A DNA stretch of 64,000 bases. Origin: Acholoe squamosa (Eukaryota; Annelida; Polychaeta; Phyllodocida; Polynoidae). The translations under genes were made by a program, and so were the position numbers. The stretch spans positions 90,433,920 to 90,497,919 of the forward strand of contig OX439036.1 of assembly GCA_949317995.1 (NCBI GenBank), given 5' to 3'. Below are positions 1 through 56,780 of the stretch, in pieces (the first letter of the stretch is position 1; each line of letters opens with the position of its first letter). The notes under the pieces are model-generated. The model made no database searches and was not told the origin of the DNA. It saw nothing but the letters and a program-made list of their open reading frames with translations.

Positions 1-1511
1 CCTGGCGGCGGGTAACGAAGGCAACGGAAATGCGCACCAATCATACTGACACACACATCCTGCCTAACCAAATCAAGCGGCCATCGGATGACCGGCCCAT
101 TGGCCACCCCTGGACTGGGGCTGACCAACGAGCAGTGGGCAGTTGCTGGGCTCCTCCTGTGTGTATCATTGATAGCATTAACGCCTGGCGGGGCGGTGAC
201 CCGGCCCATGGTGTACGCCGCCGGCTCAATAAACGCTGACTCGTTCATCACCCAGCACGCCCAATAAACGTCGGCCATTTACTACATGCCTCCCACTACC
301 CTCTACAACCCCCACAGACCTAGCGGCTTCTCTTCTGGCTGGTTGGAGCCACAGCCCTGCTGGCCTTGGCTGTGCGAATGGCTAACAATGTACAATGTAA
401 GGGGCTGGGTGGTACATTGGTGGGTGAGCTATAAAAATTTAGGAAGGTGAGCTGCTCGACCGTACCTACAGTAATACTAGACATATCATAGATCTTATGA
501 AGGTCATATTTTCTCTAATGAGGTCTAGGCTGCTTACACGTCTGTCACTTGTCTTAGGATCCAAGGCCCTTTGCTCGAACCCTTGTCATGCACACAAATT
601 GAATTTCAAAGGTCTGTATCTTTCAGGGTGGGATGTGGTCAAATATAAGGTAAATGATGCTGATTGTCCCCCATTTGGACATTTCTGGTCCCTTTCAAGC
701 AGATTGTATACAATCTGAGAATCCCTAGCCGATTGTGAGTGAAATCCTGGCTGCTTGGTCAATAGTTGACCACTGGCATCCTGAAGCTTGATTTGCTCAA
801 TCCATCAGCAAATCCTACTCAGAACTACACAGGTTGTAATTTTATTCGAAGCAATGATAATTCTTGGTGCATAGTGTATGAAAGCCAGGGTGGCTTGTGT
901 ATTTTTTCCTTGGCCCTCAGTTGAAAAATAAATTTTGCATTTTATATCGGTATCAAATATCTTATTTACCTTAGCTTCCTTTTATTGTGCACTCATACTG
1001 TGTCGACACAGTATCCTATACTGTGTCGACAACTGGAAGCCGTGCAAACTATAGTGAAAGCCCTACCCTCTGGGGGGTATAATGAAACGCTCATGCCCTA
1101 TACAGTTCTAGAATGCCTCATGCTTCGTGATAAGCAGCGATGGCGTTTTTATTTTCCATTGTCATATTTTGAAAGTTAGCTTAAAATACGAAGAAAAGTG
1201 TACGCTTGTTATACATGCCATGATCTAGTCTGTAAAAGAACGTAACAACACTGTATCCAATGGGGCATTTCTCTATATGTTTTTATTAAGAAGGAGAAAG
1301 TCGTTGGAGGGCGGTGTCTCTGCTAAAAGAAAATATTATCTATCATTTAAAAGGTCCTGGAAATAATCCAATATACATGGCCATTTTACATTTAGACTGC
1401 ACTGGTGGGACACCAATGGAACTTGACAAGGACTGCTTTCTGCAATGAGAAAAGAAAAACAGCAGATGATTTGTTGTAATATACAAGTGTAATGGTCAGC
1501 GGAAAATGTAT
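1..1511. other. Non-coding region, no gene seen
   Basis: No reading frame here has recognisable protein similarity or good splice context. The first 350 bases are GC-richer and the rest is AT-richer. Two perfect palindromes stand out: 16 bp at 701-716 and 20 bp at 995-1014. Thirteen bases of the second are repeated at 1018-1030. A GAGCTGCTC word lies at 449-457. Confidence 0.5.
995..1030. repeat. 20 bp perfect palindrome plus partial direct copy
   Basis: ATACTGTGTCGACACAGTAT at 995-1014 is its own reverse complement and is centred on GTCGAC. The left 13 bases recur at 1018-1030 after a 3 bp gap. It could be a dimeric protein site or the end of an old inverted repeat; no function can be assigned. 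Confidence 0.6.
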
Positions 1512-1583
1512 TGGAGAAACCAGGACTGGAACCCAGTACCCTTGAACTTCGAAGCAGAAGCTCTACCCCTGAGCTACTTCCCC
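1512..1583 (-). mobile_element. tRNA-like pseudogene or SINE head
   Basis: On the minus strand 72 bases align to a cytosolic tRNA, best to tRNA-Ala. The acceptor 5' strand is GGGGAAG. The D-arm and A box read TAGCTCAGGGGTAGAGC, and the B box region is GGGTTCCAGTCC. The sequence ends in TTTCTCCA. The acceptor and T arms mostly pair. The anticodon stem (TCTGC against TTCAA) does not pair and the loop is altered, so a working tRNA is unlikely. It is either a decayed tRNA gene or the Pol III head of a tRNA-derived SINE whose body would run toward 1340. There is no clear poly-A or poly-T tail. Confidence 0.6.
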
Positions 1584-2385
1584 TGCCCTGACATTCTCTA
1601 CCTTCCAACTACCCTGGAGGGTGTTGCTCCTATAGTAAAAGGAAGAGCTGGCTAAAAATGCCCTCATTCCCAGTCCTTCCTTTTCATGTAGCTATAACTT
1701 GTCCCTTTTATTGCTCACAAGTGGTCATTCAAGTATGGTGCTAAAAAAAGGGGGATTTGAGTAGGTACCTATTTGGGAGAAATCAGTCAGTATAATATAC
1801 TATAGAGTGTGTGACATGAGTAGGTACCTGATAGTGCAGCTCTCTCTGTTTTAAACAAGGCAGGTGACCTTTCAGACTAATGTGGTGAGTGCAAGTTGAA
1901 TGGTGAAGCAGAGCGTGACTACTTTTGAAAAGAGGGTACCTACTGACAGCTCTTTTTACCATAGGAGCAAAATGCTCCAGGATCGGTATGGTATACATAG
2001 GGGAGTGACACAATCAAGTGAACTCTGAAGGCTCTGCACACCCGACAGGGGAACAAACCCCTACACCAGTAAGCAATTAAATTGATAATTGCTAACATGG
2101 CCGTGAGTCATAAAGCTATGAAGTACAAAATTTACAAACAATGGGCACGAAACAAATCTTAATTGCATGATAATGATATAAAGCTCTTACATCTATAGCC
2201 TCTCAATCTTCTGGTCACTGCTGCTGGGTATCTAACATTATGATCTGTATTGATGTAGTCATCCTGTAGCTGCTATGGGCAGCTAAATTCAGTAGAATGG
2301 ACAGTCAGTACTTGCAAATTCTCAAGAGTTGGATGCCTTATAGATCATCCTTACAAGAAAGCATTCACACTTTGTATGTACATGT
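1584..2385. other. Non-coding region, no gene seen
   Basis: AT-rich DNA without recognisable coding sequence. The 10-mer GAGTAGGTAC occurs twice (near 1760 and 1820) and a reversed GGTACCTACT near 1935, suggesting a small decayed repeat. Confidence 0.4.
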
Positions 2386-3244
2386 CACTGTAAAAAAGGT
2401 GTTTAGAATCTAAACATTTTCTTGTCCCGTTTTTGAGGACACTTTATAAACCTAAACATGTTTAGCCTCATAAAGTGATTAGCCTTTGTGTTTAGATTGC
2501 AATGTGTTTAGGTCTATCGTTAGGATTGCAAAAGTGTTTATTGTGTTTACGTTTATGTTTGTCCATGTTAAGATATGACATGCTTAGATCATGTTTCAAG
2601 GTTATAGTGTTTAGCATTATGATATTATGTTTAGATATGGTATCCATAGATATTGAACTTTGTAGATCATCTCAATTATTCTACAATATCTATATTAGGC
2701 AGAGAGTACATCATACTCTCAAAGAATATCATCACATCTGTTATCCAACATAGGGAGTAACCCCCATGTATGAATGGATGAATGAAGATAGCTTTGTCTA
2801 TTCTTGGACTACAGAGTAAAGGTGTCTCTGGAAAGAATTGCTCATTGATCCAAACAATATAGGATTTAAATGACCAATCCAGAATGTTTTATCATAACAT
2901 CTATGTTCTTTCATATGAGATTCCTGATCAATGATTTACAACGGATTTTTCACACATCTTTGATGACAATAGAGTATAACTCTTTCTAGAAACTTCATTC
3001 CAGCACAGAGCTGCCAGCTAGCGAGTCTTTCATTCCTAAACACCTAAACATATACATGTTGATATCTTAAACACCTAAACTTCAAACTATTTGACTGCTA
3101 AACATGTTTAGCATAGGTGTTTAGAATTAAAGCATTTAAATTCTAAATACATAGCCAAGAGTACACTACCTATCCAATATGTTTAGACTTTAAACATGTA
3201 TAGACCTAAACATATTTAAAGTCTAAGCTCCTTTTTTTACAGTG
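2386..3244. mobile_element. Non-autonomous CACTG-ended DNA transposon with TTTAG subterminal repeats
   Basis: The left end is CACTGTAAAAAAGG. The right end, reverse-complemented, is CACTGTAAAAAAAGG, an inverted terminal repeat of about 14 bp. Between them the word TGTTTAG or its complement CTAAACA occurs about 15 times, concentrated in the outer 250 bp on each side (2400-2640 and 3035-3220) in both orientations. A short TIR starting CACTG plus subterminal repeats in both orientations is the known plan of animal EnSpm/CACTA elements, which make 3 bp target duplications. The flanking triplets here (tgt and ata) do not match, so the target duplication is unsupported. No transposase is encoded, so this would be a mobilised-in-trans derivative. 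Confidence 0.6.
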
Positions 3245-4800
3245 ATACGGTCCTCATGTTATCAGTTAAACTTAGATAAGGCTTTTATGTGAGGGGTTGA
3301 ACTCACTGACGATCTTATTTTCATGATGTCATGTAGCTTCATAGAAGTCAAATGTATATTCACTAATACACCAATCCAGAGACAGGTGTGTCCTATACGG
3401 CTAATTGTGAACCTTTGTCATGTGATTGAAACAAGTTGTCAAACCTACACACGGTAGCTGTCTCACTCGCAGCAGTATACATTAGTATTTTCATGTAGCA
3501 TCGGTATATCCCGATTGTCCAAATACAGCAATGCTAAAAGCCTAAATGAACAGCCATACCCTTAAATCCACTTGGATATAATGGATATCTAGCCATATCT
3601 AGAGATACTGGACGACAGTTTCCTGTAATATTAACCGTTCTGTCCTCGCTGCCACCCCCCCCCCCCCATCCCCAAATACCATACCTACCGCACTGTGAAG
3701 ACTGGGGGCGGGGGATAGAGGGTTCTTTATAATATAACACCTTCCTTTCCCTCTTCCATCGAATTACTACCACCCACCTATACCATACGTACCCCACTAC
3801 CAAGGCTGGCCTATACCAGCATCAGCAGGTGAACAATATGCTGGACGGCCAGCATGGTCTATGTGCGCCGTGATGAGCAGTGACGTGTAGGAGCTGCTCC
3901 GAGCTGCTCCGACACAAGGCAGTAATCAGCCCTGGCCGAGCTGCTCACCACCTGCAAGCTTCACACCAGGACCAAGGTGGTCCCAAGGTCACCCCTCCCA
4001 ACCCTTACCCCACACCCACATACGTCATACTCTAATGGCAGGAGTCACATGTAATTTGCCGATGGCCGCGCCATACAATGAATAGGTAGTTGTACTGGAG
4101 GGACAGCGCCGACAGGCTGCATGGCTCCCCGGTGGTCAGAGATGAATTGCACCATCGACAACAACGGCCAGTGCTATTACTAGAGGCCACCAACGGTCGC
4201 CTTCCCACAGAGTGTAAATAGGGGCTGGACTCCTGCAGTGGCTTCCCGTTGAATCAGTTTTAATTGACTCTACCCATGTCGGACATATAGGGTCAAATGG
4301 CACATGCCCCTAATGCTGTGTTGGCTGTTTTATGTACCTTGTCATTCCAGAGTGGCTTTGCCTGTTCCTACCTTGTATAATCTGCCAACCTCATGCATGT
4401 TCCATCGTATGTTAAAAGCTATCAAAATTTCATTTTGTTGATAATTACTTGGACAAATCTTGATAGAATGATAGAACCCTGATAGAAACCAACTGGAAGC
4501 CTAGTTTAAATTGCCGAGCCTCCCTTGGTCGCTTGTACAGCGACAGCAGGTGAACTCCTTCTCCTTGTTGGGTGTGGCTTAGTCAGGAGGAAGATGGAGA
4601 AAGCAGGTGATGGTAGTCGGGGTACTCCCAACAAGCCTGTACTGTCACTGTAATGGAGACCTCCTTAAGATGGATGTCGTCATTCAGTCCCGTCCTACGG
4701 CTGGAGAAGCTGGCACGGCCTCGACGTGCCGACCGTCTGACCTCTGCTGACCGCCTCCAGACTGAGATACATGAGCCACAGGCTGTCAGTGACCACCTAT
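3245..4800. other. Non-coding region, no gene seen
   Basis: There is a poly-C run of about 14 bases near 3654-3667. Three GAGCTGCTC words lie within 60 bp (3891, 3901, 3938). Around 4480-4800 the sequence becomes GC-richer and grades into the following minisatellite. No gene is recognised. Confidence 0.45.
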
Positions 4801-5905: not shown

Positions 5906-6686
5906 CCGACTCCTGGCGACGATATACAAACTGACAGTGACCATATTCAATCCACAACATTGTCCTAACTCTCTTGGCCATCCCACCAATTATTTGTAAC
6001 AGTATTGGCCTGCTGCCCATAGACCAACCTAATCTAGACTAGTTCTCCATTGAAGCTTAACCAGGTCAGATACGTGATAACTGCCTCTAATACATTGAAT
6101 ATCCAATTAATCTGTTGACAGGAAAACCCGACACAATAGCCATGTCACTCTATTAGCCGTTATGGCCCTCGATCATGCACAGGAGCAGGTTTCCCATAAT
6201 CTAATCGTGATTGTACATTACGAGAAAATGAACGCGTCATTATAGATTTAGAATCTGTTAGATAAGAAATTGATGGACGGCTAAATGGTGTCCCGCTGAA
6301 TAGAACGTAATAAAACAAAAGAAATCGTGCTAAACGGAACGGCCTGTGTCTATAATGGTATAGTCTGTCTTGAATTGAATATCAATAGTGTGTTTTATCA
6401 GTTAAAGGTTTCCTTTCCTAGAGTCTTTAGAAATGTATATCACACAAAACCAGACTAGGTCAAGTAAAGTTCAAATTTTTATTAATATTCACAATAATTG
6501 AACAGTTACAGCAGTAGGATGAATTATTCAGTTGATAGTTTATGTAGATGTCTCCTAGAGTCTATGTGGACCTTTAACTCTGTGAGTAGCTCTGGTGAAT
6601 GAGGGAGCAAATGGCTCTGAAGTCCTCTTTGCTGACAGCAGGCATCCTGTGACTCAGTGCGGCAACAGCGGTAGGGCGTCCTCTAA
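5906..6686. other. Non-coding region, no gene seen
   Basis: AT-rich and apparently unique sequence. No coding exon, tRNA or inverted repeat was noticed. Confidence 0.4.
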
Positions 6687-6931: not shown

Positions 6932-7971
6932 TCTAAGTATAGACCCCGGATCGTGCAGCTGGCGGCGAAAGATGTTGAAAGCCAGAGGCAAATGCCACCC
7001 TGGCTGCCAACCCCGGTGTTCTGTGCACAGACATGGCCACATACGCTTCAACTGCTTCTTCCTCCTCCCTGCTTCCGGTTCCTTCGAGCTGCTCTTCGGG
7101 GTGGCTGCACTAACAAGCCACGTATAGTCGAGCAGCTCTAACGAGCACAGCTCCAGCAGCCCACAGGGCTGTAGCCAGAATGGCCAAAACGACACCTGTG
7201 ATAAATAATGCACGTTTGATATTCCCTAACAAAGAGGGCGTGCTTCTCTAGCTCCCTCCCATTTTTTGTTTCATCCTTCCATAATGGCCATAATGAGTTT
7301 GGATATTTTGACCTTCTCTAGTGATGAGAAGCAGAGTGAGTTGGTAGTGATGATCGAGGAACTGCTCACTGTGAAGGTGTCCTGTTCTGAGCTGCTCAGG
7401 GGGTGGGGCAATGATCGATAGGGTCAGAGCTGCTCTGACAAAACCTTTCACACTAGATACCAACATAAGGAACACGTCTCCAGCGACACATGTTTGTCTG
7501 CGTAGTGGAAAAATTCAATGATCGATGGGAGGGAATATTGACATAGTATTTCATTGAAACAGATGTAGATAGTCTCAAGGGGCAAATCAATTGTATGCAG
7601 TGTACCGACATATGCCATTGGGGGAAGCACACGCGCCAATACAAAATGGCAAAATATTATATGGAGCACATGTATGTATATTGTCAGAATTGTGGAAGAG
7701 GGAATGCAATATTAGGCTCTGCACATTATAACAAATTATGGTAAAGGTTGTGGAACATGAATTTGCTACTGTGCATCCAGTGGTTTCTTTTTAAGAGCAC
7801 CCTGGGGCGTGACTGTCCTCTGTTGCCCCTCCCCTCCACATTCCGCCTACTGTACAGTAATGTTGATCTTTTTCAGCATGGTACAACAAAGAGACAGCCA
7901 ACCACGGCGCCTTTTTCAATCACATCCATTCTTGCAGCAAGAAGGCCTTCTTGTGGCCTAGCCCTTCAAGC
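6932..7971. other. Non-coding region with four GAGC(A/T)GCTC words
   Basis: The 9-mer occurs exactly at 7086, 7130, 7389 and 7427. No reading frame here shows recognisable protein features, and no repeat element was delimited. Confidence 0.4.
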
Positions 7972-9789: not shown

Positions 9790-9976
9790 TGGTCGTCATG
9801 ATGCACATATGCAGTTAGTGTTTTCGAGCAATTGATCATCACTGCATTGGTGCATCATGCTTGTCATGCATCTACCCTGTGAAATCAGATAGATGCATAC
9901 AGTAGCACCAATGATTACCACATGAGGTCTTAAATCGTGCATTATGGCGACAAAACATCAGGTGACCCTTAAAAGG
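9790..9976. mobile_element. TTAA-type MITE copy 3
   Basis: It contains CACTGCATTGGTGCATCATG and GTGCATTATGGCGACAAA and ends GACCCTTAAAAGG followed by TTAG. The left boundary is unclear and may lie beyond the CA repeat near the TTAACCCTTTG at 9423. Confidence 0.5.
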
Positions 9977-10727
9977 TTAGATATAGCAGTATTGTGTCAT
10001 CAGGCAGGAGGTTCTCAGGAGCAGCTCGGCGGATTCTTGTGAGCAGCTCCTGCATTGATAGCACTCTAGTAGACTGCTGATGTCTCGTTGAGTACTTCAT
10101 ATTGTCACAGACTGTGACATTCTCACGGGTCCTCTAAGTCCTCTGAAGTCATGCACACTCAGGAGCTGCTCATTCTGTCAGAGTTCGATCCTGTATTCAC
10201 AACTTGCTCACGTATATGATTCTTTAGGAGCAGCCCACAATGTCGTGCTCCACTGAACGCTAACTTGTAATACCTGTATGTTCAATTATTCAACATTTTT
10301 AAACACTTGATTGGTAGAGCTAGAAGGTTCCCTGCTGAATTTTCAGCTTCGGCTCTTCCCCCAGTCTAGCTGATTGAAATGCTAGACACCCGTCTTCATT
10401 AAAGATTACACAAGTAATTCACACCACCCCAAGCCATGCATGTGGGATTTGCATGCAAGGTGGCCACTGTATTTAGCCGAGTTAGTTTCTCTGCACAGTT
10501 GGTGTGCCTTGCTATGTGGGGAAGCATCTGTCTAATAGGCCCCGGCGTGGTTTGAAGGACAATGGCGTTTAATGCCTTCTGACAGTTTGAGCATCAATAA
10601 TGTAGGCAGCATGGGAGAAGCTGTTACCTGCATGCCGCCATTGCATTACCCCCTGCTGCTCCATTATTCACCCCCTTCAGATACACCCCAAACCCGGCCC
10701 CATACACCGATTACATCCCGATTATGA
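9977..10727. other. Non-coding region with three GAGC(A/T)GCTC words
   Basis: The 9-mer is at 10019, 10041 and 10163, with a one-base variant near 10227. The rest appears to be unique sequence. Confidence 0.4.
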
Positions 10728-18765: not shown

Positions 18766-20044
18766 TCAAGAAGCCTATTTTCGTGAATGGCCTGCATTCA
18801 GATTCTGCCTTGCATATAAAGTGGATATGTAGTGAGCTCAGTGTGTGTGCGCAGGCCGTTCGGCTGCTTGGCTATTGCTGGTCATGAGATGTTGGGACTA
18901 ACCCGTTATGACATATTGCCTTTCAAATCATAATCAGTTTCTCACATGATACATTATGTACCATAGCCCAGCTGTAATTCATATATATCAAAAGTGAATT
19001 GAAAGAAGAAAAAAGAAAAGAGTGAATTGGGAGGAGCTGAAATCATATAACCAGTCTGAATTAAGAAACAAAAGGAGTAGAGTACACGGTATGATATAAC
19101 AGTATCACTGACTATCCCAGGCCATTGAATTTACGGACTGAACTGACAGCAAAGTAGCAACACCAATCCATATTGCCCACAGTATTTGGTGGCACGTCCA
19201 ACCACTCTTTCTCCCCAATACCTCTCAACAGTCCAGAGGATGCGTAAACTGGGCCTACTTGATTAACATTACCCCACCGTATGACCAAACCGCCTGCTCC
19301 ATGAAGGCCCCCTGTGTAGGCCTGGAGTAGTCCTATTGACCCACAAGTCTGCATATCGGCTCTACAAGGGCCAATAGACGGTCGGGGTTGATGGATCGGG
19401 GTAGGATCGGCGCGGCCTGGATTATTGGAATAGACAGCCACCATGGAGGTTAGTGATGTGAGTCACTGTGAGCAGCTCATGGGACGTCAGTGGAGCTGCC
19501 GGCTCCTAACGGATTATGAAAAAACGAGTGTGGGGTCCAAAGAGAACGTTAGGGGCGAGGGAGCTAAGGGGAAGACCCTATAATAAGGGATCGGCTATGA
19601 CTCAGTGACTACTCAACGGAGGGTAAATTGAATAGATCACACGTTTGTGACGTGTATGTAGAGCCTTGACTCATTCACAACGCAGTACGGTAGAATAAAG
19701 CCGGGGAATAAAGGGGTGAACGCCTTCAAACAGAATGCTGTCCATCAGTTGGGTGTCTGACCTGCCATTATAGTCATATTTTTATGAAAGATTAGCCTTT
19801 TATCCCCACCTTTTATTATATGGATTTACCTCTTACTATAAGTAGCTTAAATGCTGCGGCTTCAGCAATCCATGAGACTCTGTCTTCAGTGGCAATCATG
19901 ATATAGCGTGTTTGGGTAATGTATAGCCCACTGCCTACAGCAGTCTACAAGTGTAGAATGTTCAGATTGAAATGGAGCCTATTGACGCTACCTGCCCTAT
20001 CATACATGTGTAATAGGACGCCCCGAGGGCGTCATTCACGGCCC

Positions 20045-20325: not shown

Positions 20326-22135
20326 GCTATACATGTACTTGATAAATAGGCTGCAGGTGGATGGGGGGGCGGGTGAGTAAATATGAAGCGTAGGTGTGTA
20401 CTGGATGAAGGGATCTTGTAAATGACCGGCATGAAAGGGCATAAACACGTCTTTAAATTATGTAAAGGTGCTGACCAGTTATCATCCTACAATATGACAC
20501 TAGGACTGGCGGAGCTCTCAAACGCAGCTCGATGATTATCTTTGGGTTTTAAATGCTAGGGTTAGGTCAAGTCAGCCCAAATAATTGTGGGCAAATGAGG
20601 GGAAAGGGCCCTCCCTGCGAGATTTTTAGTATTAGATTCGGCCACTAGGGGAGCCACAGAGGCTAAAAACATGAAAAATAGACAAAAGAATTGCTATTAT
20701 GTAATTTTTTATACAGAAAAAGATGGTTTTCTCAAAAACGTTCTATTTTCTGGCACTTCCTGTGTATGTAGAGTGTAAATGGAACATTTTGAATCCAAAA
20801 CAAGGCCTAAATAAGCATTCTCAGAGATATGGGATGCCATGGCAACCAAAATAATATTCCAAAGAGAAAAAATATTAATGTCAATTGATACAATGATTCA
20901 TGTAAATTCATATGCTGAAAAAAGCATTGAGATACCATTTCTAGATCCAAAGTTATGCCCAAATGTATGGAAAGGGTTGGCCACTTTTCAATTGATTATT
21001 TGAATCATTATGCTAATTAGATGCCTGATTTAATTAAAACAAGGAATGGTAGAGCTTATTGGCTGTATTGGTACAGTTATGTCATTCCATTTTCGTGAAG
21101 CAATATCTCAGAGACCAGAGGGGTTATCTGCAAGTGTTATACCTCATTTTAAAGCCAATGACTTCAATTCTAAATATCACATTTTACCTCGAATGACCCT
21201 TTCCCTTCATCTGTCCACAATTATTTTAATCTGTTCACCTTATGTTTACAACTGCAATATCTAGTGAGCATGTATGTGGCATGTACGAGAGCATATACGC
21301 GTGAATCACATATGTCAGTCGGTATGGGTATGTTGGGGTATCATGTTTGGGTACCCTTCATGTCGACCTGGAGTCCATTATTAACGACCTAAGCACCCCT
21401 CGCGGAATATGCACCCTGCCCTTTGGTCAGTCCTCCCACGACATATCCTCAGAGGAAAGGCAAACAAAGGGAATGACCTATAGCTTCCTGTCCATGACAG
21501 AATATATGCAATGAGGGGTTGGTGAGAAGTATTCACCCATGTTTTATGTAATAGGGTTCGGTGACCAAGGCATCCATACTCAGGCTGAGGCTGTAGGACG
21601 TTGTGTGTATGTACAGACCTGTAGTCTTTCTGTTAAACAGATATAATGAAGTTGTATTGAATTTGCCTTTCTTTCCATTTATTTTATATTAAATAATTTA
21701 GGTATCCAAACCAGAAAAGGAGAAAAGACCCTACCATCTTTTCCTTCCATTTTCAGGGGGGGGTGGAGAAAAGTACAAAGAGAAATTTTAAAGAATTACC
21801 CTAGACTTTAAGATTATGTAACCTCAAGCAAACTTCTTTCTTATTTCATTTCCGGCATTAGCTCGATATTGACTAGCAATTTCACGTCATTTACAGTTAT
21901 GAATTTTGTGAATGCGCCTTCTCATCCATTCAGTTTATAATCCACCAAGCGATACTGTCCCTAGAGATTACCTCCAACTGACGGACTGGAAAAAAACAGA
22001 AATTTGACTCATCCCCAATGCGCATTATGCACTTGAAATCCACATCATCCCCCAGATACACACACGTGTCACAGCACAGCTGAAATTTCTCCCTCAACTT
22101 TTTTTGAAGCACCTACTGCCGTGGCCTCTTTATCT
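20326..22135. other. AT-rich non-coding region
   Basis: 20640-21260 is markedly AT-rich. It includes ATGCCATGGCAACC near 20834, a half-perfect RFX X-box. No coding exon was found. Confidence 0.4.
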
Positions 22136-22138
22136 ATA

Positions 22139-22329
22139 GTGCACAGGCGTGGACTGGTTACCAGGTTTAGTCTGTGTAGGTGGTACCACTCACCTCCGTA
22201 ATCAAGGTCTGTGCATAGCAAATAAAAGCACCAGAGGGCAGCACGGTTCCCTTTAGTTTCTCACCCTTCTATAGCATATATGGATAACACCTACACAGAC
22301 TAAACCTGGTAAGCAGTCCACGCCCGTGC
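22139..22329. mobile_element. 191 bp MITE with about 40 bp TIRs and TATA target site
   Basis: The left end GTGCACAGGCGTGGACTG continues through ACCAGGTTTAGTCTGTGTAG. The right end is the reverse complement with few changes. TATA is present immediately outside both ends (22135-22138 and 22330-22333), which supports a 4 bp (or TA) target duplication. The interior carries CACCAGAGGGCAGCA at 22229-22243, a close match to the CTCF core. Confidence 0.8.
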
Positions 22330-22332
22330 TAT

Positions 22333-24109
22333 ATATCCCCTACAAATCCATTCAAAATTATCATGGACCACTACGTATTGCCCGGTGTAGCATGTTGCTG
22401 TTACATCAGTATATGCAAGTACAGATTGTGGCATTTGTGGACATACATATGCCTTAAGCCATGGTAAAAGTTGTTATTTACGATCCGCCATGTTATCTCA
22501 AAGCATTTTGGTAATTGCTACTTTCTCTGGGGTCTTTTTGATGATAACAACAAATAGGGAAATATTCCTGTCCCCGTATCAACCATGAGACAGCTAGTAT
22601 TTGTTACATCAACACCACATATATTTGACAGTCCTGTCAGACCCATATGTTACTGCCCACATCTCCCCCAGTGACCCCCCCCCCCCGCCCATCCCTCCTC
22701 TATGCTAGTGATGATAGCAAAGTTGCGGTTTTACTAGACAATGCCTTCTCTGACTACAGTGACCAGAGTGAGTGACCAGTCCATTCACGGTGACTGATGG
22801 CACTCGTCCAAGGTCCCTCACTGCCGGCCGCTCCCTGACCACATGCACGTTGTGGCCGTGCCTCCAGGGCCTTACATCCTCCACACAAAGGTTGGCGTCC
22901 TCTCTGCATACAGAGGACCGCCATATTCATCACCACCAGACATGTTAAAACGGCCAAAAATAATTTTCTTACAACATTTTCAAGACTTGTGAACGGCCGA
23001 GGACATTACGGCCCTCCAATGCAAAAATCAATTTTGAACTGGTAATCACGAGATTTTCAATCCTGTATCACATTAAATGATAGTCTTACAATTTTTCGAG
23101 GAATGGCAACATTAATATGGATGGATATCACCCCAATATCATCCATTTCTCCTTGCCAAGAAGGCTCAAAGTGGTATTCATCGTAATAACCATTATAATG
23201 CAAATTAGCTAACAATTCTACTTTTTTTCTACTACTTCTCCTGGCTTAATCTTAAAATGTGATTTTTATTTCATTTTCACTAGGCAGTCTTTGTACATCT
23301 ACTGAATTCTTTCATTTTTTAATTTCGAATAGATAGTGAAAATAATCACATGCTGGGCTCAAAATGACACCAGATGTAAACAAAGAAAATTCGGTTTAAG
23401 AAAACTGCTTTTGGCGATATAGCTACATGAGGACTAGCATTAGGATATTAGATGTGGCCAGTCTGTATAATGTCTTCATGAGGAAAAGGAGTGTACGTGT
23501 TGTGTCTTCTTAACAGGGGAACATCCACATTGTTTGTGTCGTGTAAGTTTATCATTTATCAATTTCATTTCTTACCCTTTGAAACCAAATATGATTTATC
23601 TACTGATGAAGACACATTACTGCAATTATTTTCAGGAAAGTGTATCAATAGTCACTATTATACCATAATTATACAACGTATGGTATAATACCATATGTAT
23701 GTTATGTAGGTTGGTGTATACATTTTTAGAATTATTCATATATTTACTTGGTAGACGTGCCTTGCTACTTATCATTCAATTACCTGCTGACTTGATATAA
23801 TGCGTATAATTATATACAATATGATTAAAGGCATCTACATACGGGTGTAACATGATTTATATACCCTCACCATGCTGGTAAACTGGCTTTATATAATACC
23901 TACTACAATGTAGGGTTGTCATATGCATTCAGAACTCTCCAGGGTGGGGGTTTAGACCGTTTTACTACATGCCCAAACCCCTCATGCACATACGGAAGAT
24001 CAGGGCGGGGCTTTCCAGGATCACTCTACACTGTCATAAAGTCACGTCTTATATACCAATGATATCCTTGTACTGTGATCTCACTGAAGGAACCTAAAAT
24101 GAGAGCCCT
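22333..24109. other. AT-rich non-coding region
   Basis: There is a poly-C run near 22675-22686 and a TATACCAT/ATGGTATA hairpin near 23657-23687. No gene is recognised. Confidence 0.4.
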
Positions 24110-34410: not shown

Positions 34411-37120
34411 CCCCCCCCCCATGCTGGACATGTCACACCAATGCAATGCAGACTAACGAGTAGAATCTTAGTATTGCATATGTGTAGCAGTTTTACATTC
34501 GACCAAGGAAAAAGTACCTAGAGCTATTGTGTGTTTCTTAAAGGTCTAAAGGTCTCAGTGAAGGAAATCCCGCAGAAAAACGGAAGTCATAAACGATTGT
34601 GGTCAGAAGTGAATACTGCAGGCACACTGAATGGTCAATAACCATGTTGAAAATAATGCCAATAAATATAAAACCACTACACATGTTGTTGAAAATTTGC
34701 TGCTTTAGATAAAATACCAGGACGGCATTTCTCAAAGTGCTTACCCATTTTTTCAAGTGTTAGATTGGAAATAATGAATCTACATTTTATTCAGTGCAGC
34801 TTTAGGCAGAATCAGGGTGTTTTTACGCGATAGTCCAGTGCTCAAAATTTTCGTGGTCAATTCATATTTTAAGTCAGCCTATATTATGAAGGAAGGATGT
34901 ATCTATTCATTCTGGGGTGATTTTTAGAAAATGAACATGTTCCAATTGGTGCTATTGCATTTCGCGCTATATTAAGTTATAGTGTGGAACTAATTCCTTC
35001 TATGAGACCTAAAGCATATGGGGTATTAGCATGAAGAATGAAAATACTCCTCAAATCAGTTTTTTTCTATATTAATTATTTAGAGAAGGATTGTTTTTGC
35101 CAAATTCTATGGAAAATACGTTCATAGGTCTCTAAAATGTGTCACAAATCAAGGAAAAATCATCTTTATATTGCTGTCGGAGTGGTCTGCAGGCCGAGCT
35201 GCAGGTTCATTTCAGTCTAGGCCCACGGGCAAAGTGCAGATTATTTTGATAGGCCCAATTTATTTTTAACTTATTCTTAACAGGGTAGGCATATCATATC
35301 TGTATAGTATTGGCCACTTGCTGCTAGTCTAGGTAGTACAGAGAGGAGTTATTGTTGCACTTTGACATATCATCTGTATTAGTTAAGTTAGGGACTGACA
35401 CCACAAATGACATATCTACTGCTTCAAGGAAACTATCTAGGGTATAATATTTTAGGACATTTCCTTGAAATCATCTAGAAATGTAGTATTGTATAACCCA
35501 GTGTCCATGTTACCTACTCTCATAAATCTTCCCAGGCATGACATGTGAATATTGTGAACTTTTTGCAGCGATTTTTATGTATTTTTTACAATTTTTCATA
35601 ATTTGTCAATTATATCGACAGTAAACTGCAGCAAGGACACTTGCACCATATAGAGAAAGATCAAAAGAATAGCCATGCCAAATTTGATAGTCCTAGAGGC
35701 ACTGCTTGTCATGAAAATGACTCAAAGATGAAGAGGGCGGTATCCTTGGCCAGAGACATAGAAATCAGACTGATTTTGGGTATTACTTGGCCCGAAAGGC
35801 ACCATATATCATGAGATAGAGCGGTCCAAGGAGCATAAAACCTAGGGGCCTGTGTAAAAACATCTATTGGATTATAAAATTCTCAATTATAGACAAGACA
35901 TGCGCACAGCCCATTAATAGTAAAGGGTAGAGAACTTGTACTAACTTATAGGCATAGTGTATGGCATATATACCAGAGGGCAGTGAGCTGCTCACAGAAC
36001 AGCTCCATGACATAACGTCTCCTGGCGTGTATGCGGCGTCCAGTTAACATCACTGTGACGGGTCGAGCCCTGAATCGGATACGGAACGGTCGACATTAAA
36101 TACCATGTTGTCGGACGCGCCTGGAGCCACCCATCCAAGTTTGATGAGGCTAGGGCAGTGGCCACGTCCTCCTGAATAATACACAGGAGGAAGCTACCCA
36201 CAGCCTGCCTGGATCTTCTCCTCCAGTGAGCTGGTCGCTGTTTGTGTGCTAACTGGAGAATAACTCACCCACAGTCCCTGCTCGTCACTGGTGGGTGGAT
36301 AAGCTGTGACCTGCGTGACCTGCTGTTATTTGTAGGCAGTCAGCCATGCAGAGGTTTGGCTCTTAGCTACGCTACTAAACAGGCAGATAAATCAGGGATG
36401 TCATTGTATGATGTACTTGTAATACCAATGAATAGGATGTGGAGTTGTTGCTTCCAAAAGTGCATACAGTCGCACACAGCTTCGTACGATATAGAACCTC
36501 AGAGAAGATTATTACGTATCGTCAAGTTTCTATGATTCCCCATAGATCCATAGACGGCCCTGGTCCACTCTAGGCTTAGAGCTTTTGATTTTGAAGGGTA
36601 ACGTTCATAGAACCTCCACATTCCATGAGTTCCATATTCCAAGACAGTAACCAGTACTACTTGCAAGAGCGGACTGTGCATCTTCTCCAACATCCTCGTC
36701 CTTTCTTTGTCAGTTTTGCTTTAAAAGGCCAGTCACCTTTGTCCTGAATTTTGTAATCCCTGTCACTCAGGATTAATGAAATCTGACAGAGTAGGGATCG
36801 AGTTTCTTTGTATTTGATTCGTTTAATTCAGCAGAACCTCACACCGATGAAAAGAAACCCCAGCTATCCTTTTTACAACATCACAGTTTATCACAAGGCA
36901 TTGGGAGCCATTGATTTCCACGGGTAATCACGGCATGGCCTGTTCCTTATTGGATGTGAAAGTAGAAAAAGTACTGAAAATCAATAAGGATATTTTGTAA
37001 GCACTGAGAGCAGTGTCCATTACTGTTTTGAAGCATATTTCATGGTTGGTACACTGAGCCACCAGAGGGACTCCAAAGTCCGGTAGCTCATATACATGTA
37101 TGGTAGTAATACAAGTTAAG
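34411..37120. other. AT-rich non-coding region
   Basis: No exon or delimited repeat was recognised. CCAGAGGGCAG (CTCF-like) near 35974 lies just before GAGCTGCTC at 35985-35993. Confidence 0.4.
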
Positions 37121-38008
37121 GATCCCTGCACTATATATCACATTATAGACCTCTGCACTATATAGCACATTATGGACCCCTGCACTATAATAGCAAATTA
37201 TGGAACCCTGCACTATATAGCACATTATGGACCCCTGTACTATATAGCACATTATGGACCCCTGCACTATATAGCACATTATGGACCCCTGCACTATATA
37301 GCACATTATAGATCGCTGTACTATATAGCACATTATGGACCCCTGTACTATATAGCACATTATAGATCGCTGTACTATATAGCACATTATGGACCCCTGC
37401 ACTATATAGCACATTATAGATCGCTGTACTATATAGCACATTATGGATCTCTGTACTGTAAAGCACATTATGGATCTCTGTACTATATAGCACATTATAG
37501 ATCGCTGTACTATATAGCACATTATAGATCGCTGTACTATATAGCACATTATGTATCTCTGTACTATATAGCACATTATAGATCGCTGTACTATATAGCA
37601 CATTATGGATCTCTGTACTGTAAAGCACATTATGGATCTCTGTACTATATAGCACATTATAGATCGCTGTACTATATAGCACATTATAGATCGCTGTACT
37701 ATATAGCACATTATGGATCTCTGTACTATATAGCACATTATAGATCGCTGTACTATATAGCACATTATGTATCTCTGTACTATATAGCACATTATAGATC
37801 GCTGTACTATATAGCACATTATGGATCTCTGTACTGTAAAGCACATTATGGATCTCTGTACTATATAGCACATTATAGATCGCTGTACTATATAGCACAT
37901 TATAGATCGCTGTACTATATAGCACATTATGGATCTCTGTACTATATAGCACATTATAGATCGCTGTACTATATAGCACATTATGGATCTCTGTACTGTA
38001 TAGCACAT
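37121..38008. repeat. 27 bp minisatellite, about 33 copies, with higher-order repeat
   Basis: The unit is CACTATATAGCACATTATGG plus seven variable bases (for example ACCCCTG or ATCGCTG). The period is exactly 27 bp, a multiple of three. Long frames of roughly 275-330 codons therefore stay open on both strands through the array. Early units carry GGACCCCT, later ones alternate AGATCGCT and GGATCTCT. A marker variant with CTGTAAAGCAC instead of CTATATAGCAC returns after six and then eight units (162 and 216 bp), which shows block duplication. Confidence 0.97.
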
Positions 38009-44124: not shown

Positions 44125-44770
44125 CTGGAGGTTAATTCAAAAGGTCCTGGGATTTCTACCCCTGCGATCTTAGCGTAGGCACATATCATAAGACCTAGCC
44201 AGTATACCCTATCTAATGCAGTGGTTGCAGGCCAGTCAGGCACAGTGAGTCCTGAGATCCCTTCACTATTCCTTTTCCAGCTGTAAGATCACTGCAATCT
44301 TAGTGAAATAATTGCATAGTGGTTTCACCTGAGTACAAGAGCACTCACAGGAAACACTCCTGCTGCCAAGAGTAAATGTCCCTGCTGTATACATATAGAG
44401 AGGAGGGAGGACATTTGCTGAGAGTCCTTGATGGCTCTTCAGGCTACTCAGGCATGAAGTGCACTTGAATACTGTACAAGGTCAATTGCACCCTATATTC
44501 TATAAGTAGCTTATATAGGAAAGGGGAATGAATGCTTGTATAATGACTCTTGTGAGAAGGAGTGTTTCCACTGTTATTCTTTTACTATGGGCCCCTTGCC
44601 CCTGGGCACAGCATGTTCTACTTGGAATGGTGTAGGAGGGCTGAGGCTAAGATCACTGCGATCTTAGTGCTGGCTGTGAAAAGGCAAGATAGTCTAAGCC
44701 TTGGATAAGGCAGAATAATTCCTAAGATCGCTGAGGTAGCGATCCCAGGACCTTTTGAATTAACCTCCTG
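44125..44770. mobile_element. 646 bp TIR element with repeated AAGATC(A/G)CTGC(G/A)ATCTTAG palindromes
   Basis: The left end CTGGAGGTTAATTCAAAAGG continues into TCCTGGGA. The right end is its reverse complement with one early mismatch (CAGGAGG). Similarity continues to about 50 bp. GCGATCTTAGCG near the left end, two interior AAGATCACTGC(A/G)ATCTTAGTG copies (about 44287 and 44650) and AAGATCGCTGAGGTAGCGATC at the right end make a spaced set of palindromic sites. Superfamily unassigned. Confidence 0.75.
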
Positions 44771-46417: not shown

Positions 46418-46650
46418 CTCTTTAAAGGCAGCATGCAGGATACCATATTAAAGTATGTGCAAGATGCATGACTGCAGACCTAGACCTCCTTCACCAATTT
46501 ATAAGGCTATATTCATGCATCATGCCAACCCTCCAGGGTAGATAAAATGATGAAGGATTGACATGATGCACCAATACTATTTCTGTATCGGTACATTATG
46601 AAGACAAAGGAGCATGAAACCAGGGCATGAATTAGCCCTTAACAGCTTCA
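46418..46650. mobile_element. TTAA-type MITE copy 13
   Basis: TTAA (46414-46417) precedes CTCTTTAAAGGCAGC. The interior has TTCATGCATCATGCCAACCC, ATGATGCACCAATAC and GAAGACAAAGGAGCATGAAA. The right end AGCCCTTAACAG is mutated. Confidence 0.65.
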
Positions 46651-48030: not shown

Positions 48031-48333
48031 TTCAGTCTACAGAGCAGTGTTTTTAAGTTAGCAGGGGGGTTAAATTAACAGCTCCACATGAGGAGCAGCA
48101 GGGAGCAGTTCGCCAACGGCAGTTTTCTCCCCAACGAGCAGCTCGGCCGGGTAGGTGATGCGCTCATGTCACGAATGGCCAAACCACCGGCTTCAGGCTG
48201 GAGCACTGAAAACTCAACTTAACAATACAACCAATCTAAATCTTTAGGTCGCCAACCTAAGAAAGCAATATGACCAAAATGTCGCAATCAAGACCCTTCA
48301 AGTCCCGCTTGAGTGTAGCTACCCCAGGTTGCC

Positions 48334-48663: not shown

Positions 48664-48928
48664 ACACCTGAAGGGCAACATGACGCTTAAAAGGCACAAG
48701 TAAGCATTCGCATTGCTGCAGGAACTAGCGAGTCTAGCTCGACAGGCTATATTCATGCATCAATCCAACCCCTCTGAGACGATTTACAGACAAAGGTTTT
48801 GCATGATGCGCCAATGCAGTGCTGGTGGGTAGATTCACCAACGCTGTTTTGATGCGTCATGACGACCAGGAAAATTACATGTACCTTGATACATCATGCG
48901 GCCATTAAAGGGCTAGGAGCTCCAACGT
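48664..48928. mobile_element. TTAA-type MITE copy 16
   Basis: The interior is well preserved: TATTCATGCATCAATCCAAC, GCATGATGCGCCAATGCAGT and GATGCGTCATGACGACC. The right end GGCCATTAAAGGG is followed by CTAG. GAGCAGCTC words follow at 48967 and 48989. Confidence 0.6.
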
Positions 48929-49060
48929 GAGCCACACCAGGTTTTCCTTATCCAAAAGCCAGCCACGAGCAGCTCATGTGAGAGCTAGGAGCAGCTCATG
49001 GGGAGTCCACACATTGATTGGATACATACTGTAAGCAGTACGTCCAACCAGCTCATATTG

Positions 49061-50900: not shown

Positions 50901-51995
50901 CACTGCCTATAGATCAAAGGAACAGCTCGGCATGTTACAAAGATTACAAAGATTATAGAATCAGGGTCTCAGAATTTGCTTTCGTTGCTCAGTCCGTGAT
51001 ATGAGTCTTGATGATCTGCATGAACAAAGTGGTGTTCCATATCTGGAAAGAAGAAGAGATGAATTGCATCTCTCTTTTATGTACAAGTGTTCTGTAACTG
51101 GCAAACACTTACATGTTCCTAATAATGTGAACAGAACCACACATAGCTCAAATAAGGTTAAGTTTGAGGTAAAGCAGCCCAAAAAAGACTTCTATAAACA
51201 GTCCCCATTGTATAGAGGAGTAAAGTTGTGGGATAACCTGGATGAATGGTACCAGAAAAGTGAGACAAAGCAGCAGTTCAAGAGCAGGCTAACCAGGATC
51301 AAGGACTTGCACAAGAAGAGTAGAAGACCCGCCAATGCTGATCTACCACAAAACAGTCTACTTATTGACAAATCTATTGTCATAATTTGACATCTAACTG
51401 TATTAACTGTAAACACAATGTCAGAGCATATCAATTGGATATACTCGCTCCATATTCAAGATATTACGTTTGTGTGGCTTATGGCAAAATTCTGTCTTTT
51501 CTTTTCTTTTTTTTTCTTCACTAGACTTGTCAGTGCTGCATCCCACTCCTATTTTTTCTATGTGAGAGCTATTTTCTGTCCTCGCAAAAAGCAGTCAACC
51601 ACATAAGACTTTCGTTTCCTTTTTCACCCAAATGGCTTGAGTAGCCCTTTTCTTTGTATGTATATGATTGTATGTAAATATGTCTTTTTCCACTGTTCTT
51701 TATTTTTTCTGTGTATTCGGGTATAATACTGTAACTCCTTCTCCTGACTTGGGGATGGAAACTGAGTCATTTTTCTCACCATTGATCCAAAGGTAAACTA
51801 ACTGATCATTGTAAATATCATTTCTGTTTTCCGGACACCTAAAGTGTGTGATCTGGAGAGTGGTATATCATCTAATTTATATTTAATTTTCTTTTCTTTT
51901 GCATATGAATCGAGGTGAAATACCACAGGCCACACATTTGACTGACTTATATTATCACTACGGCATGTAGTGGATCGGTCAATAAAGATCTTTAA
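50901..51995 (+). mobile_element. 5'-truncated non-LTR retrotransposon (LINE) 3' end
   Basis: The segment carries the C-terminal region of a reverse-transcriptase polyprotein, then about 600 bp of non-coding sequence. It finishes near CAATAAAGATCTTTAAAAAA, an A-rich 3' tail. No RT catalytic motifs are present, so most of the element is missing at the 5' side. A precise left boundary and target duplication were not found. Confidence 0.6.
50959..51390 (+). pseudogene. LINE reverse transcriptase C-terminal fragment
   Basis: After an in-frame TAG at 50956-50958 the frame is open to 51390 (143 sense codons). The codons before and after the stop read LQRL*NQGLRICFR, which fits the LQ(R/K)LQNRALR motif found after the RT domain in jockey/CR1-like LINEs; a CAG to TAG change would explain the stop. 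Further along, LDDLHEQSGVPYLERRRDEL, LSFMYKC and SPLYRGVKLWDNLDEWYQ match the family's usual C-terminal order. The first ATG in the frame is at 51001 but is unlikely to be a real start. It is a dead fragment. The clade is not resolvable by eye. Confidence 0.6.
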
Positions 51996-53930
51996 AAAAA
52001 ATGCTGCGGGAAGCTGGGTGAGCTGCTCACCCCAGTAACCAGGCCCTCATATATATAGCTTTACAACGATTCCAACTATTCCCTCTGCTAATACCAGTGA
52101 TGCTTGCCACCAGACCTCATATATTTGGTGTAAAACATACAGGATATGGTAATACAATTATAGGATAGACGGGGAGATGGAATATGTAGGACATGTTCTG
52201 TTAAAAATACTGCAATACTACAGTGGTATATTCTGTTTGGATTATGCACTCTCTTACCCTAACATCTCAAACTGCCGGATGTATAGGGCTTATAAAAAAA
52301 TAAGTCTCTGCAATGTCTATTTTCGATTTAGACTTGTTCGGAATGATCCTTTGAAGGTAATGCATGTAATAATTCAGTCCTTCCTATTTCGGATGAGGCA
52401 GTCCGCAAACAAAAATAGTTGAGCTACTGTTGTGTAGTTAAGACTATTTCCCGTGTCTCTTTAGGCAGTACACTCTCCCTTGGAGGAGGCTGGGACGATA
52501 TACTGCTTCCTGTGCAGGCGAGTTGCAGTCTGGGAGGTTGTGGTATGGGCTATAAGGGCCCGCAGGGAGTTATTAGCGAAGGAGTAAACGGCCTCCTCAA
52601 GAGAAGACATGCGAGGCGGCTGGTGGGATTTTTGCTTTGGGCCAGACAATATGAGGCTTTGTCTTTAAGGTTAAGAGTGTGAGACATGAGCATGGTGCTA
52701 AACATGAGTTTGAATGCCATCAGGTGTCCGTATTTACATCTAACAGTCTGCCTGAAGCCTGGATTTACACCTAGTCCATGAGTACTGAGACATTCCTGGC
52801 AAGCATTTTGTGAACATTAACATGACGAGCACGAATGGGGCTCATCTCGTGAGGCATCCAATTAGGATGCTATTAGAAAATCGATATGAACCTGGTGGGA
52901 AGATGGCCTCTACTACATTCTCCCCTGTCCTCGATTGGCTAGCGTGGGTTAATGGATATTTATGGTCAGTTGTGATATACTCGACCATTACCGCTTATAG
53001 CCGGTGCGTGTGACCTTATGGGTCACTCATGCTGGGGCAGCCATGATAGTCTGGGTTAAAGGTCAGATTGGTGGCGAGGGTGAAGGTCATATTAGAAGAG
53101 ATCATCATGTCTGCTCTGGTTATGTCGTTACTGGCTGCTCGGCATGTGTGTGATCAAGTCTCCCCTGACAGTTCAACCCTGACCGGTAGTAATTAATGAT
53201 TGATCATATAATTATTGGTGATTAAATGATTGATTACCTTCTGGTGTTGTGAGGCTATGCCACAGACAGATGAACAGCAAGCCCCAGACTTTCTTCACAG
53301 TATAAGATTCTTAGATCCCCTAGTTCACAGATATGAGAGGTACAATGCAGCAGTGATAACTATTAAATGTTTCGGAATTTCCTTATCACTATGTCTTAAA
53401 ATATGTACTCCGTTAATTCTGTACAGTCCCCCGACCAACCAGAAGGTTTTAGATCTGAATATGAGCATAAGCAAGAAGTACACATTGGGGCTGCTACTCC
53501 GGCTGCCACAGGATGTGGTTTCCATGATACTTAAATCATTATAGGCATGCATTATCCATGTCATCCAATACATGAGCAAGTATGCATGATGCTGGGAGGC
53601 TGACCCCGCCCTGACCCCATCAGCATGCCCCCCCCTCTCACCATCCCACTGCCTTCTGACCCTGACTTATCCCCGGTACTCTCTGCCCCTGCCAAGTATG
53701 ACTTATTGCCACTTCCCCCAGTCTGTAACTTATTCCTGTACATCCACCACCCTTGTAGACTGCCTTTCTGGTCCACCAGGACCCGAGGATGGCAGGGCTT
53801 CCCTAGCCCACTTAAAAGGGTCTATATCTCCTCTTTACTATCCCCTCAGGATGTGTGTGGTGCACATATGCGCAGGCATCGATACATTCCTCTGTGAAAT
53901 TGTGTAATGTCGTTCTCTCCATGAATATGA
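51996..53930. other. Non-coding region, one weak exon candidate
   Basis: GAGCTGCTC at 52020 lies just past the LINE tail. A fair acceptor (TCTCTTTAG, ending near 52465) precedes a 40-codon open stretch, but the other frame and the minus strand are equally open and none is recognisable. Two AGGTCA half-sites lie near 53043 and 53067. Confidence 0.3.
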
Positions 53931-54380: not shown

Positions 54381-54558
54381 CCACCCGGCAGCTGCTGGCT
54401 TGGTTTGAATGCGTCCATAGAGCTGTGATAGACTTATAACCATAATGCCATTCTCACCTTGTGCATGTGACAAAGGTAGGGGTCTCTACTATGTGTACAT
54501 CTCTTTCATGCAACAATATAATATATACAGGCAAATACACTCTGTTTCTCGTCAGTCC

Positions 54559-54632
54559 CTGTGGCACATTGCATAGGGAGTTGGATTTGGGATCAGTAGG
54601 ATATGGGTTTGACCCCTAGCCCTTGGCAATAG
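54559..54632 (+). mobile_element. tRNA-like SINE head
   Basis: GTGGCACATTGCATAGGGAG corresponds to the 5' half with A box, GTTGGATTTGGGATCAG to a Pro-TGG-like anticodon arm, and GGGTTTGACCCC to the B box region. A functional tRNA is unlikely because the acceptor stem does not close. No tail boundary was identified. Confidence 0.5.
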
Positions 54633-54668
54633 AATTCACATAGGTTTTAACATGTGACATATGACATG

Positions 54669-54736
54669 TAAGGTGTGCTGATATCCATGGATAACAGCAC
54701 TGGGTGCCTGTTATCCATGGATAACAGCACACCTTA
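54669..54736. repeat. Nested palindrome, 29 bp arms
   Basis: Two 29 bp arms are complementary apart from one mismatch, with a 10 base loop (54698-54707). The right arm contains CTGTTATCCATGGATAACAG, itself a perfect 20 bp palindrome. The left arm carries the same with one change. The structure can fold in more than one way. Confidence 0.9.
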
Positions 54737-54759
54737 CAATGGTCATGATGCATGCATCA

Positions 54760-56780
54760 TGGCATGCAATATTGACAGGTATCATAATGGGAATATCCAC
54801 AAAAAGAACCCAAAATCACAAAAGTCGTGTAATAACTGCCTCTAACAAAGTGTGTAGAGCAGCCCTCTGTTCAAACAGCCAGGTTTATCCCCCGCTGCTT
54901 CAAATAACCCCCATATTGATTCAGCTGTGTGGCTGGTAGTTTAGGTCTGGTCGTCTTCACTCTTCAAGCGGAGGTTTGTTGAAGTATGGACATCTGTTTC
55001 TCTGTGTGCTGAGAGGGAGGAGGATTAAAAGAGCGAGCAAACAGGTCCTCTGGCCAATAATCATGTTGGTACATCACAGGCAGTGGAATGGCAGAACAAG
55101 ACAGGCTGAAAGCCTTTGGGCTATAACAGAGAATCTACATCTAATTGGCCGTAATTACCATACAGTTCTTGTACCACCAAGAAAAGTCTGCTAACAGCAC
55201 CATTATCTATAACTATCCATGATAAGGCATGTTTATCCTTTAGAAAACAGCCTGCCATCTAGATGTGATCTATACACCTGACTCTCATGGTTTGCATTCT
55301 ATAAACTTAATTCTCTCTAATAATTCATCTTTGTTGAATTCATCTGAATGATGCTACTGTGGTGCATATAGTGTATTAAAGGCAGTGCCATTTTGATTAT
55401 AAGAACTTCTTCGGTTTTGAGTTGCTTCAGGGGCTGGGCCATGCATTGACTGCAGGGCTAAGGCTTTGGTGGCGGCAGTCTGGCTGGCTGTGCAAGGGCT
55501 GGGGTGAGGTAGGTAGGTAGGTTAGAAAGGGGGTGTATAGAGGGTATATATAGGTCTGCTAAGACTGGTGACAGCATCCGCCTCTGCCTCCCTAAACCTG
55601 TCAGCGACAAGTGCTTTACGCACACCACATGTAGGCTCTCTATGTCGGATATGAGCAACTCACTGCCACTGAAGGCAGCAGCCTTGAGCAGCTCGCCCTA
55701 CACCCTACTACTGCACTCCTTGGGCAAAGTGATACAACCAGCATTATGGTATTTCAAAATATATGCCTTTCTTTTATGAAAGCACAGATTAGTCTGTTAT
55801 CCCAAGAAGTACTTGCTATAATGTTACTAGTCTTGTGGAAATCCCACCCCTTTGTGAGGTAGGATGCTTATAAGCTATATTATTAAGAAAATGTACATTT
55901 GTTTTGAAAAAATACAGATATAAATAGTAGCACCTTGATATTAGGGAAATATCGATCTTTCGATATATCTCCTGGAGTAACTAACTAACCTTAATCATGC
56001 ATTTCTTCAGAATAATACGTGAAAAATTAAGACCCTATAACAACTCACGAATGCAAGCTTGGAAAAAAATCTTACCCTCTCTCAGCATAATATTTCTAAC
56101 GCTAATGGTGTCAGAATGGGCACAGAGTGCAAGGACTCGGGTTGCACACAATATGTTCTTGGTATAGTCCAACCAGGCAGGTCACCTACACGAAAGGGGT
56201 CCATTCCTCAACAAGGCCACTCAGCAGATGTTTTCATTTTGTTTTATTTCTGGTCCTTTGCTCATGGAAAATATGCAACAGATGTATAACTGTATGCATG
56301 TGGGGACAAGCTTATTATAGGGATATGTCCATGTCTGTGTTACTTTATAGGACGTGTGATTGTCGGGAAAGTGAAAGGTGCAGTGGTTGTACAGGAGCAT
56401 TGCTTTCCCATATTGTCTGGAAGTTGTATGTATTGAAAAGTATCTGATAATCACCCATGTCGTTTTCACAATAAATGTCATAAGGACATGTATAGAGTAT
56501 TCCATCCCTTTGACATTTTGTCCTATACATTATGACTGAGGGTGAGCAGCATGAACACTGTGTACCAATGTCTGTCCTTTATAGTGTTAGACATCCAAGA
56601 TATGTGATAAATGGCAGCTATACCATAGTCTGGGCAAGGAGATACTACACAAGTAGACGTCTGGATATGGTGGGAATATGACACATACTCCCTCACACAT
56701 ACACACTCTGTAACTGATGGACAATTCTCACAACTTCGGCCGAAATGCATGCTTCACTGGGGCCCTTGATGGAGGGGCCC
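54760..56780. other. Non-coding region
   Basis: A short (GGTA)n tract lies near 55505-55520 and GAGCAGCTC at 55686. No exon recognised. Confidence 0.35.

Follow-up and report, generated by a model that had tools for sequence, protein, structure and literature searches.

A strict palindromic word, GAGCWGCTC, in single-copy clusters and long terminal repeat promoters of the annelid Acholoe squamosa: candidate site of a putative host DNA-binding protein

Why should a single nine-letter word recur 18 times within 64 kb of an annelid genome? The window considered here, meaning the whole stretch of 64,000 nucleotides that was analysed, comes from the polynoid polychaete Acholoe squamosa (assembly GCA_949317995.1, contig OX439036.1; C2:90433920-90497919 in our contig numbering). 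The word, GAGCWGCTC, is a 9-nt odd palindrome in which two inverted GAGC arms enclose a W centre (A or T). An earlier note on this DNA had reported 18 exact copies, and every one of them was found at the coordinate given for it (Table 1). We propose that GAGCWGCTC is the recognition site of a putative host DNA-binding protein, a reading that the sequence makes probable and that we favour with some reserve.

The abundance of the word in the window exceeds every background that we applied. Its 18 copies compare with a mean of 0.44 and a maximum of 3 in 100 dinucleotide shuffles, and Markov models of orders 1–5 predict 0.37–1.39 copies. As a further reference we used (i) the 11 remaining palindromes that share the W centre and the arm letters of the word and (ii) 200 kb sampled elsewhere, made up of 20 loci of 10 kb at preset coordinates on C1–C4, four of which lie within 20 kb of the window. 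Taken together, these 11 have 3 occurrences in the window; in the samples they have 5, and GAGCWGCTC itself has 10. Six of them contain CpG, which accounts for their rarity, and all 3 and all 5 counts come from the five CpG-free ones; the S-centred form of the word, which also contains CpG, occurs once in the window and once in the samples. Counting copies with similar 6+6 flanks once, we find 22 distinct contexts of GAGCWGCTC in window and samples vs 1.4 expected, and by the score used it is the most over-represented 9-mer except poly-C among the 3,395 words with 8 or more occurrences. The copies are also clustered, as the earlier note had stated: 8 of the 17 gaps between neighbours are shorter than 500 bp vs 2.2 expected (P 0.0002). 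Its mention of one-base variants beside the copies carries less weight, since 18 one-mismatch places are present but about 10 are expected anyway. As a separate observation, CCCTGGAGG is likewise over-represented with distinct flanks in the window and the 20 sampled loci (15 vs 2.8).

Counting across the whole assembly (1.48 Gb, 63 contigs), a check against Markov background that the earlier note had named, yields 71,505 copies of GAGCWGCTC, or 48 per Mb. From the 200 kb samples, an order 3 model predicts about 4.6 per Mb (6,800 copies) and an order 5 model 7.9 per Mb (11,700 copies), the latter expectation already holding much of the word itself, and the genome count thus lies about six to ten times above expectation. 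Leaving aside the four loci near the window, the samples (16 loci, 160 kb) contain 7 copies, and this density of about 44 per Mb agrees with that of the genome. At 281 per Mb the window is 5.8 times denser than the genome, a ratio that is not a fair test, as the window was selected for the word. Copies with one mismatch number 251,321 genome-wide (322,826 less the 71,505 exact ones) vs about 187,000 expected at order 3 from the samples. The two exact forms therefore exceed order 3 by about 65,000 copies and all 50 one-mismatch words together by about 64,000; because the two excesses are nearly equal, the word is strict. The reversed control CTCGWCGAG has 2,172 genome copies and contains two CpG, so that it was not used as a yardstick.

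In lying far above its genome-wide expectation, GAGCWGCTC is a highly iterated palindrome. The name belongs to HIP1 of cyanobacteria, which PMC4390886 discusses together with DNA methyltransferases. Both are short palindromes far in excess throughout a genome; unlike the prokaryotic GCGATCGC, however, GAGCWGCTC is an odd palindrome, is placed at promoters and belongs to an animal.

We compared the surroundings of the window copies with each other and with the rest of the genome. In the columns flanking the 18 copies no letter is shared by more than 10 of them, and the base that immediately precedes the word shows a mild preference for T (at 41 of 88 word ends from the window, the 20 samples and 6 further loci). 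A BLAST comparison of the 18 flanks, 200 bp per side, with the window and 28 loci gave no match to another copy or to a locus with a long terminal repeat (LTR) within 140 bp of a word. Whole-genome DNA searches, which skip very common words, returned self-matches alone for the stretches 3700–4100, 7000–7500 and 9900–10300, and for 48860–49060 the self-match plus a single match of 45 bp that stops short of the words; as a positive control, an LTR stretch (L026 family) gave 2,405 candidates, of which 40 were scored. The 12 of the 18 window copies that were tested thus lie in four stretches that are single-copy around the words, and a word repeated several times within single-copy DNA forms a homotypic cluster. 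The same arrangement is found at preset coordinates elsewhere: the 16 sampled loci contribute 7 copies, three of which form a cluster in L006 that is single-copy around the words; two belong to an LTR family (L008) and two lie in L015. With no common column among the 18 copies and no repeated flanks around the 12 tested, a single repeat family is rejected as the source of the window copies. For the 12 tested copies, whose flanks match only themselves, nothing supports the remnant of a short interspersed unit that the earlier note had suggested, and they do not sit in one repeat family. Membership of all copies in one such family, or a genome-wide count at background level, is what the note had said would refute its reading; the count lies far above background.

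Small repeats do occur in the neighbourhood. Pieces of one small dispersed repeat lie at 9837–9860 and 48801–48824, near clusters C and D, and recur in L005, L018, L020 and L021; a 72-bp repeat pair at 46504 and 48744 adjoins it.

Elsewhere in the genome many copies reside in LTR families and in tandem arrays of 19 bp and 51 bp. Pairs of words with a gap of 0–30 bp number 10,119 vs 107 if copies were uniformly distributed, with arrays and LTRs included; the matches listed for these pairs include LTR-like pairs and a 19-bp minisatellite. In four loci (L025–L028) two words straddle a TATA box in a common layout, that is, a word, 4–10 bp, TATAWA, and 14–18 bp from the TATA start to the second word, with orientation and first gap read by eye. 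A start-like string TCATC, also read by eye, follows the TATA start by 30–32 bp in L025, L028 and L008 and is absent at that spot in L026 and L027. An integrase frame adjoins the LTR of L025 (Integrase_H2C2, E 1.7e-17; the rve match, E 2.9e-7, falls slightly below its cut-off), and we take this element to be Ty3/gypsy. The L026 family shows 7 same-strand pairs 4.9–6.0 kb apart among the best 40 of 2,405 candidates, as expected of the two LTRs of one element, whereas L027 and L028 were assigned as LTRs by eye only. Genome-wide, TATAWA lies 12–21 bp upstream of a word at 6,237 places vs about 2,740 expected from its sampled frequency. The matches listed (the first 100 of C1, which include a tandem array and TA repeats) have many different spacers, and therefore more than one family has the TATA-word design. 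A tandem array at C1 9353943-9354765 has a spacing of about 51 bp, and its listed units pair the word with TATATA.

To follow the words within one LTR family we used 20 L026-family copies from the best 40 of 2,405, chosen by similarity and not by their words. None of the 360 word cells differs from the reference copy; in the flanks, out to 100 bp, 225 of 4,490 cells do (5.0%; without CpG columns 189 of 4,150, 4.6%). Variable columns amount to 0 of 18 in the words and 66 of 225 in the flanks (Fisher P 0.004, and 0.008 without CpG columns, both values being too small for the reasons given below). The two words sit in invariant runs of 10 and 12, and the alignment has an additional invariant run of 8. 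L008 was left out of the final count since it had been met through its words; with it the word cells stand at 0 of 378, and of the 175 placements of a 9-mer pair around the LTR TATA box none is invariant except that of the words and the same placement shifted by one base. The L026 family keeps both words intact.

These properties bear on what kind of site the word may be. Being strict and made of two inverted GAGC half-sites around one W, the odd palindrome suits a putative DNA-binding protein that is most likely a homodimer. The homotypic clusters in unique DNA fit cis-regulatory modules, and the conservation of the words to either side of TATA is in keeping with a factor required for LTR transcription. 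Strictness, dyad symmetry, single-copy clusters and conservation in LTR promoters together indirectly favour the earlier note's proposal of a protein-binding site; the E-box-like core by which it had characterised that site did not hold up. E-boxes, the sites of basic helix-loop-helix proteins, are defined by a CANNTG core, and direct reading finds it in neither GAGCAGCTC nor GAGCTGCTC; this identity is rejected. The p53-family half-site, RRRCWWGYYY, was rejected as well: the arms of the word fit RRRC and GYYY, but a single central base stands where that half-site has two W.

We envisage the following course. The single-copy clusters at 3.9, 7.1–7.4, 10.0–10.2 and 49.0 kb, groups of 2–4 sites, would probably serve as modules of enhancers or promoters. 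LTR retrotransposons of at least two kinds carry the site on both sides of TATA, and the one family tested keeps it, probably since LTR transcription would need the host factor, e.g. in germ cells, and retrotransposition would then have spread further sites. Protein binding, dimer state and activation are all three inferred from the letters of the genome, and an activator appears more likely than a repressor. A bolder version, which we offer tentatively and regard as unlikely to hold in full, is that of a putative core-promoter or architectural factor of the annelid lineage whose strict site several LTR families adopted, two to each TATA box, seeding many thousands of copies and giving the genome one shared regulatory word.

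Several results weigh against a host factor site. The flanks of the copies at 10019 and 48967/48989 have a 24-bp piece of the small dispersed repeat in common, at least 140 bp from the words. In the L026 family, the invariant runs also include one of 11, which lies 125 bp downstream of the first word, and one of 9 at 108 bp, so that invariance is not confined to the words. Moreover, the 20 LTR copies have a common ancestry, their reference copy was itself picked up by way of its words, and L038 and L043, both among the 20, are probably ends of one element; the P values are therefore too small. LTR families, tandem arrays and TA repeats may account for the whole enrichment of upstream TATAWA, and 5–30 bp downstream of the word TATAWA is not enriched genome-wide (5,919 vs about 7,120 expected), so that there is no general link between TATA and the word. 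No helical phasing was found in 24 pair spacings, picked by eye with LTR- or minisatellite-looking pairs excluded (P 0.086 for the 18 below 50 bp, P 0.44 for all 24). Dyad symmetry extending beyond the word, seen in the window (29/72, P 0.004), was not repeated in the 20 sampled loci (5/40), the LTR loci giving 21/64, and because of this the palindromic extension was dropped.

Competing explanations differ in which of these observations they accommodate. Chance, composition or mutational bias is hardly credible and is refuted at the level of counts, as shuffles, Markov orders 1–5 and the CpG-free palindromes of the same letters all predict far fewer copies. Repeat debris would explain more: the word would have spread within LTRs and tandem arrays, and the window copies would be old LTR remains with decayed flanks. 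The many genome copies in LTR families (2,405 first-look candidates for one family) and in the 19-bp and 51-bp arrays agree with it, as do the window copies at 449 and 35985, where TATA lies 18–19 bp upstream and thus near the LTR spacing, and the small dispersed repeat within 200 bp of clusters C and D. What makes this explanation unlikely is the window itself, where the copies lack a common flanking column, no other copy or LTR locus matches within 140 bp of a word, and four stretches are single-copy around the words. Flanks decayed beyond recognition should not leave 2–4 intact 9-mers in 50–350 bp unless the word was kept.

The main functional rival of a transcription factor site is an architectural role, in which a CTCF-like or loop-anchor factor of the lineage would bind sites carried by mobile elements. 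The genome-wide 48 per Mb and the presence of the word in both mobile elements and unique DNA would suit such a factor, and there is a precedent in PMC12221973, where the terminal repeats of the placozoan DNA transposon Mutator carry a loop-anchor motif with contact data. As there, the word is common to mobile elements and regulatory DNA; the placozoan case differs in its DNA transposon and contact data, and the likeness drawn here is one of arrangement. We consider an architectural role improbable, as the promoter-tied placement in LTRs suits a transcription factor as well or better. The chromatin-organising word that the earlier note had listed among its readings is neither favoured nor contradicted by these results. 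Alternatively, the words flanking TATA could be operators for holding LTR transcription down, under the control of the host or of the element itself, and words close on both TATA sides are where a bound protein could block TBP. Elements should, however, lose sites that are used only against them, yet the words and their one-base shift are what stays invariant among the 175 pairs around the LTR TATA box, which leaves a repressor site with little probability.

A host factor site shared with mobile elements is of a kind already known; the scale and the two-word frame around TATA set this case apart. Homotypic clusters of transcription factor sites occur in enhancers, and the clusters of GAGCWGCTC resemble them in having several copies of a strict dyad-symmetric word over tens to hundreds of bases of single-copy DNA; they differ in an unusually large copy number and spread through LTR promoters, and in that the factor is only putative. 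LTRs of primate endogenous retroviruses carry p53 sites and so likewise carry and scatter the sites of a host factor, here a putative one. The present case differs in that pairs of GAGCWGCTC enclose the TATA box in LTRs of at least two kinds, and in that the word is common in single-copy DNA as well. In the open-licence papers searched, neither word form nor the degenerate form is printed as a separate word, although a copy embedded in a longer primer string would escape such a search. If the proposed host factor site is real, an annelid regulatory factor could be deduced purely from sequence, and within one animal the same strict word would clearly serve mobile elements as well as single-copy regulatory DNA, the direction of borrowing being traceable in related worms. 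The two-word TATA frame would permit a direct promoter assay, provided that a protein reads the word.

Table 1 Exact copies of GAGCWGCTC in the 64-kb window
Feature	Position	Remark
Word copy	449..457	TATAAA start 19 bp upstream, + strand
Word copy, cluster A	3891..3899	stretch 3700–4100 single-copy
Word copy, cluster A	3901..3909	stretch 3700–4100 single-copy
Word copy, cluster A	3938..3946	stretch 3700–4100 single-copy
Word copy, cluster B	7086..7094	stretch 7000–7500 single-copy
Word copy, cluster B	7130..7138	stretch 7000–7500 single-copy
Word copy, cluster B	7389..7397	stretch 7000–7500 single-copy
Word copy, cluster B	7427..7435	stretch 7000–7500 single-copy
Word copy, cluster C	10019..10027	stretch 9900–10300 single-copy
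Word copy, cluster C	10041..10049	stretch 9900–10300 single-copy
Word copy, cluster C	10163..10171	stretch 9900–10300 single-copy
Word copy, solitary	19470..19478	exact match
Word copy	35985..35993	TATATA start 18 bp upstream, + strand; one-mismatch copy at 35997
Word copy	48136..48144	one-mismatch copy at 48103
Word copy, pair D	48967..48975	word flanks single-copy
Word copy, pair D	48989..48997	word flanks single-copy
Word copy	52020..52028	TATAWA starts 27 and 29 bp upstream, − strand
Word copy	55686..55694	one-mismatch copy at 55653

The window has other features besides the word. A 27-bp unit is repeated 33 times at 37116–38008 and is open in three long frames over both strands. Inverted arms of 47 bp (44127–44173 and 44722–44768, 91% complementary, 548 bp apart) resemble a small DNA transposon, and a second set of 51-bp arms lies at 22135–22185 and 22285–22335 (90% complementary, 99 bp apart). 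On the minus strand, 1512–1583 gives a weak tRNA-like Rfam match (31.3 bits vs a cut-off of 29) that ARAGORN does not call, possibly a tRNA gene or a tRNA-derived short interspersed nuclear element. Six window frames compared with Pfam gave no match; a frame at 50959–51390, without a Pfam match, resembles by eye the C-terminal end of the reverse transcriptase of a long interspersed nuclear element.

Within the assembly, contig C63 (15,641 bp) is the mitochondrion, with its genes on one strand and read with code 5. Their order, the last 1.1 kb excluded, is nad4, a stretch without gene-like long frames, nad1, nad3, nad2, cox1, cox2, atp8, cox3, nad6, cob, atp6 and nad5, where only cox1 was matched to a family model and the other genes were named by eye; we take this to be the common annelid order. 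The same contig (L050 4442-5026) carries a TA repeat of about 410 bp, after which an 11-bp unit is repeated about 15 times.

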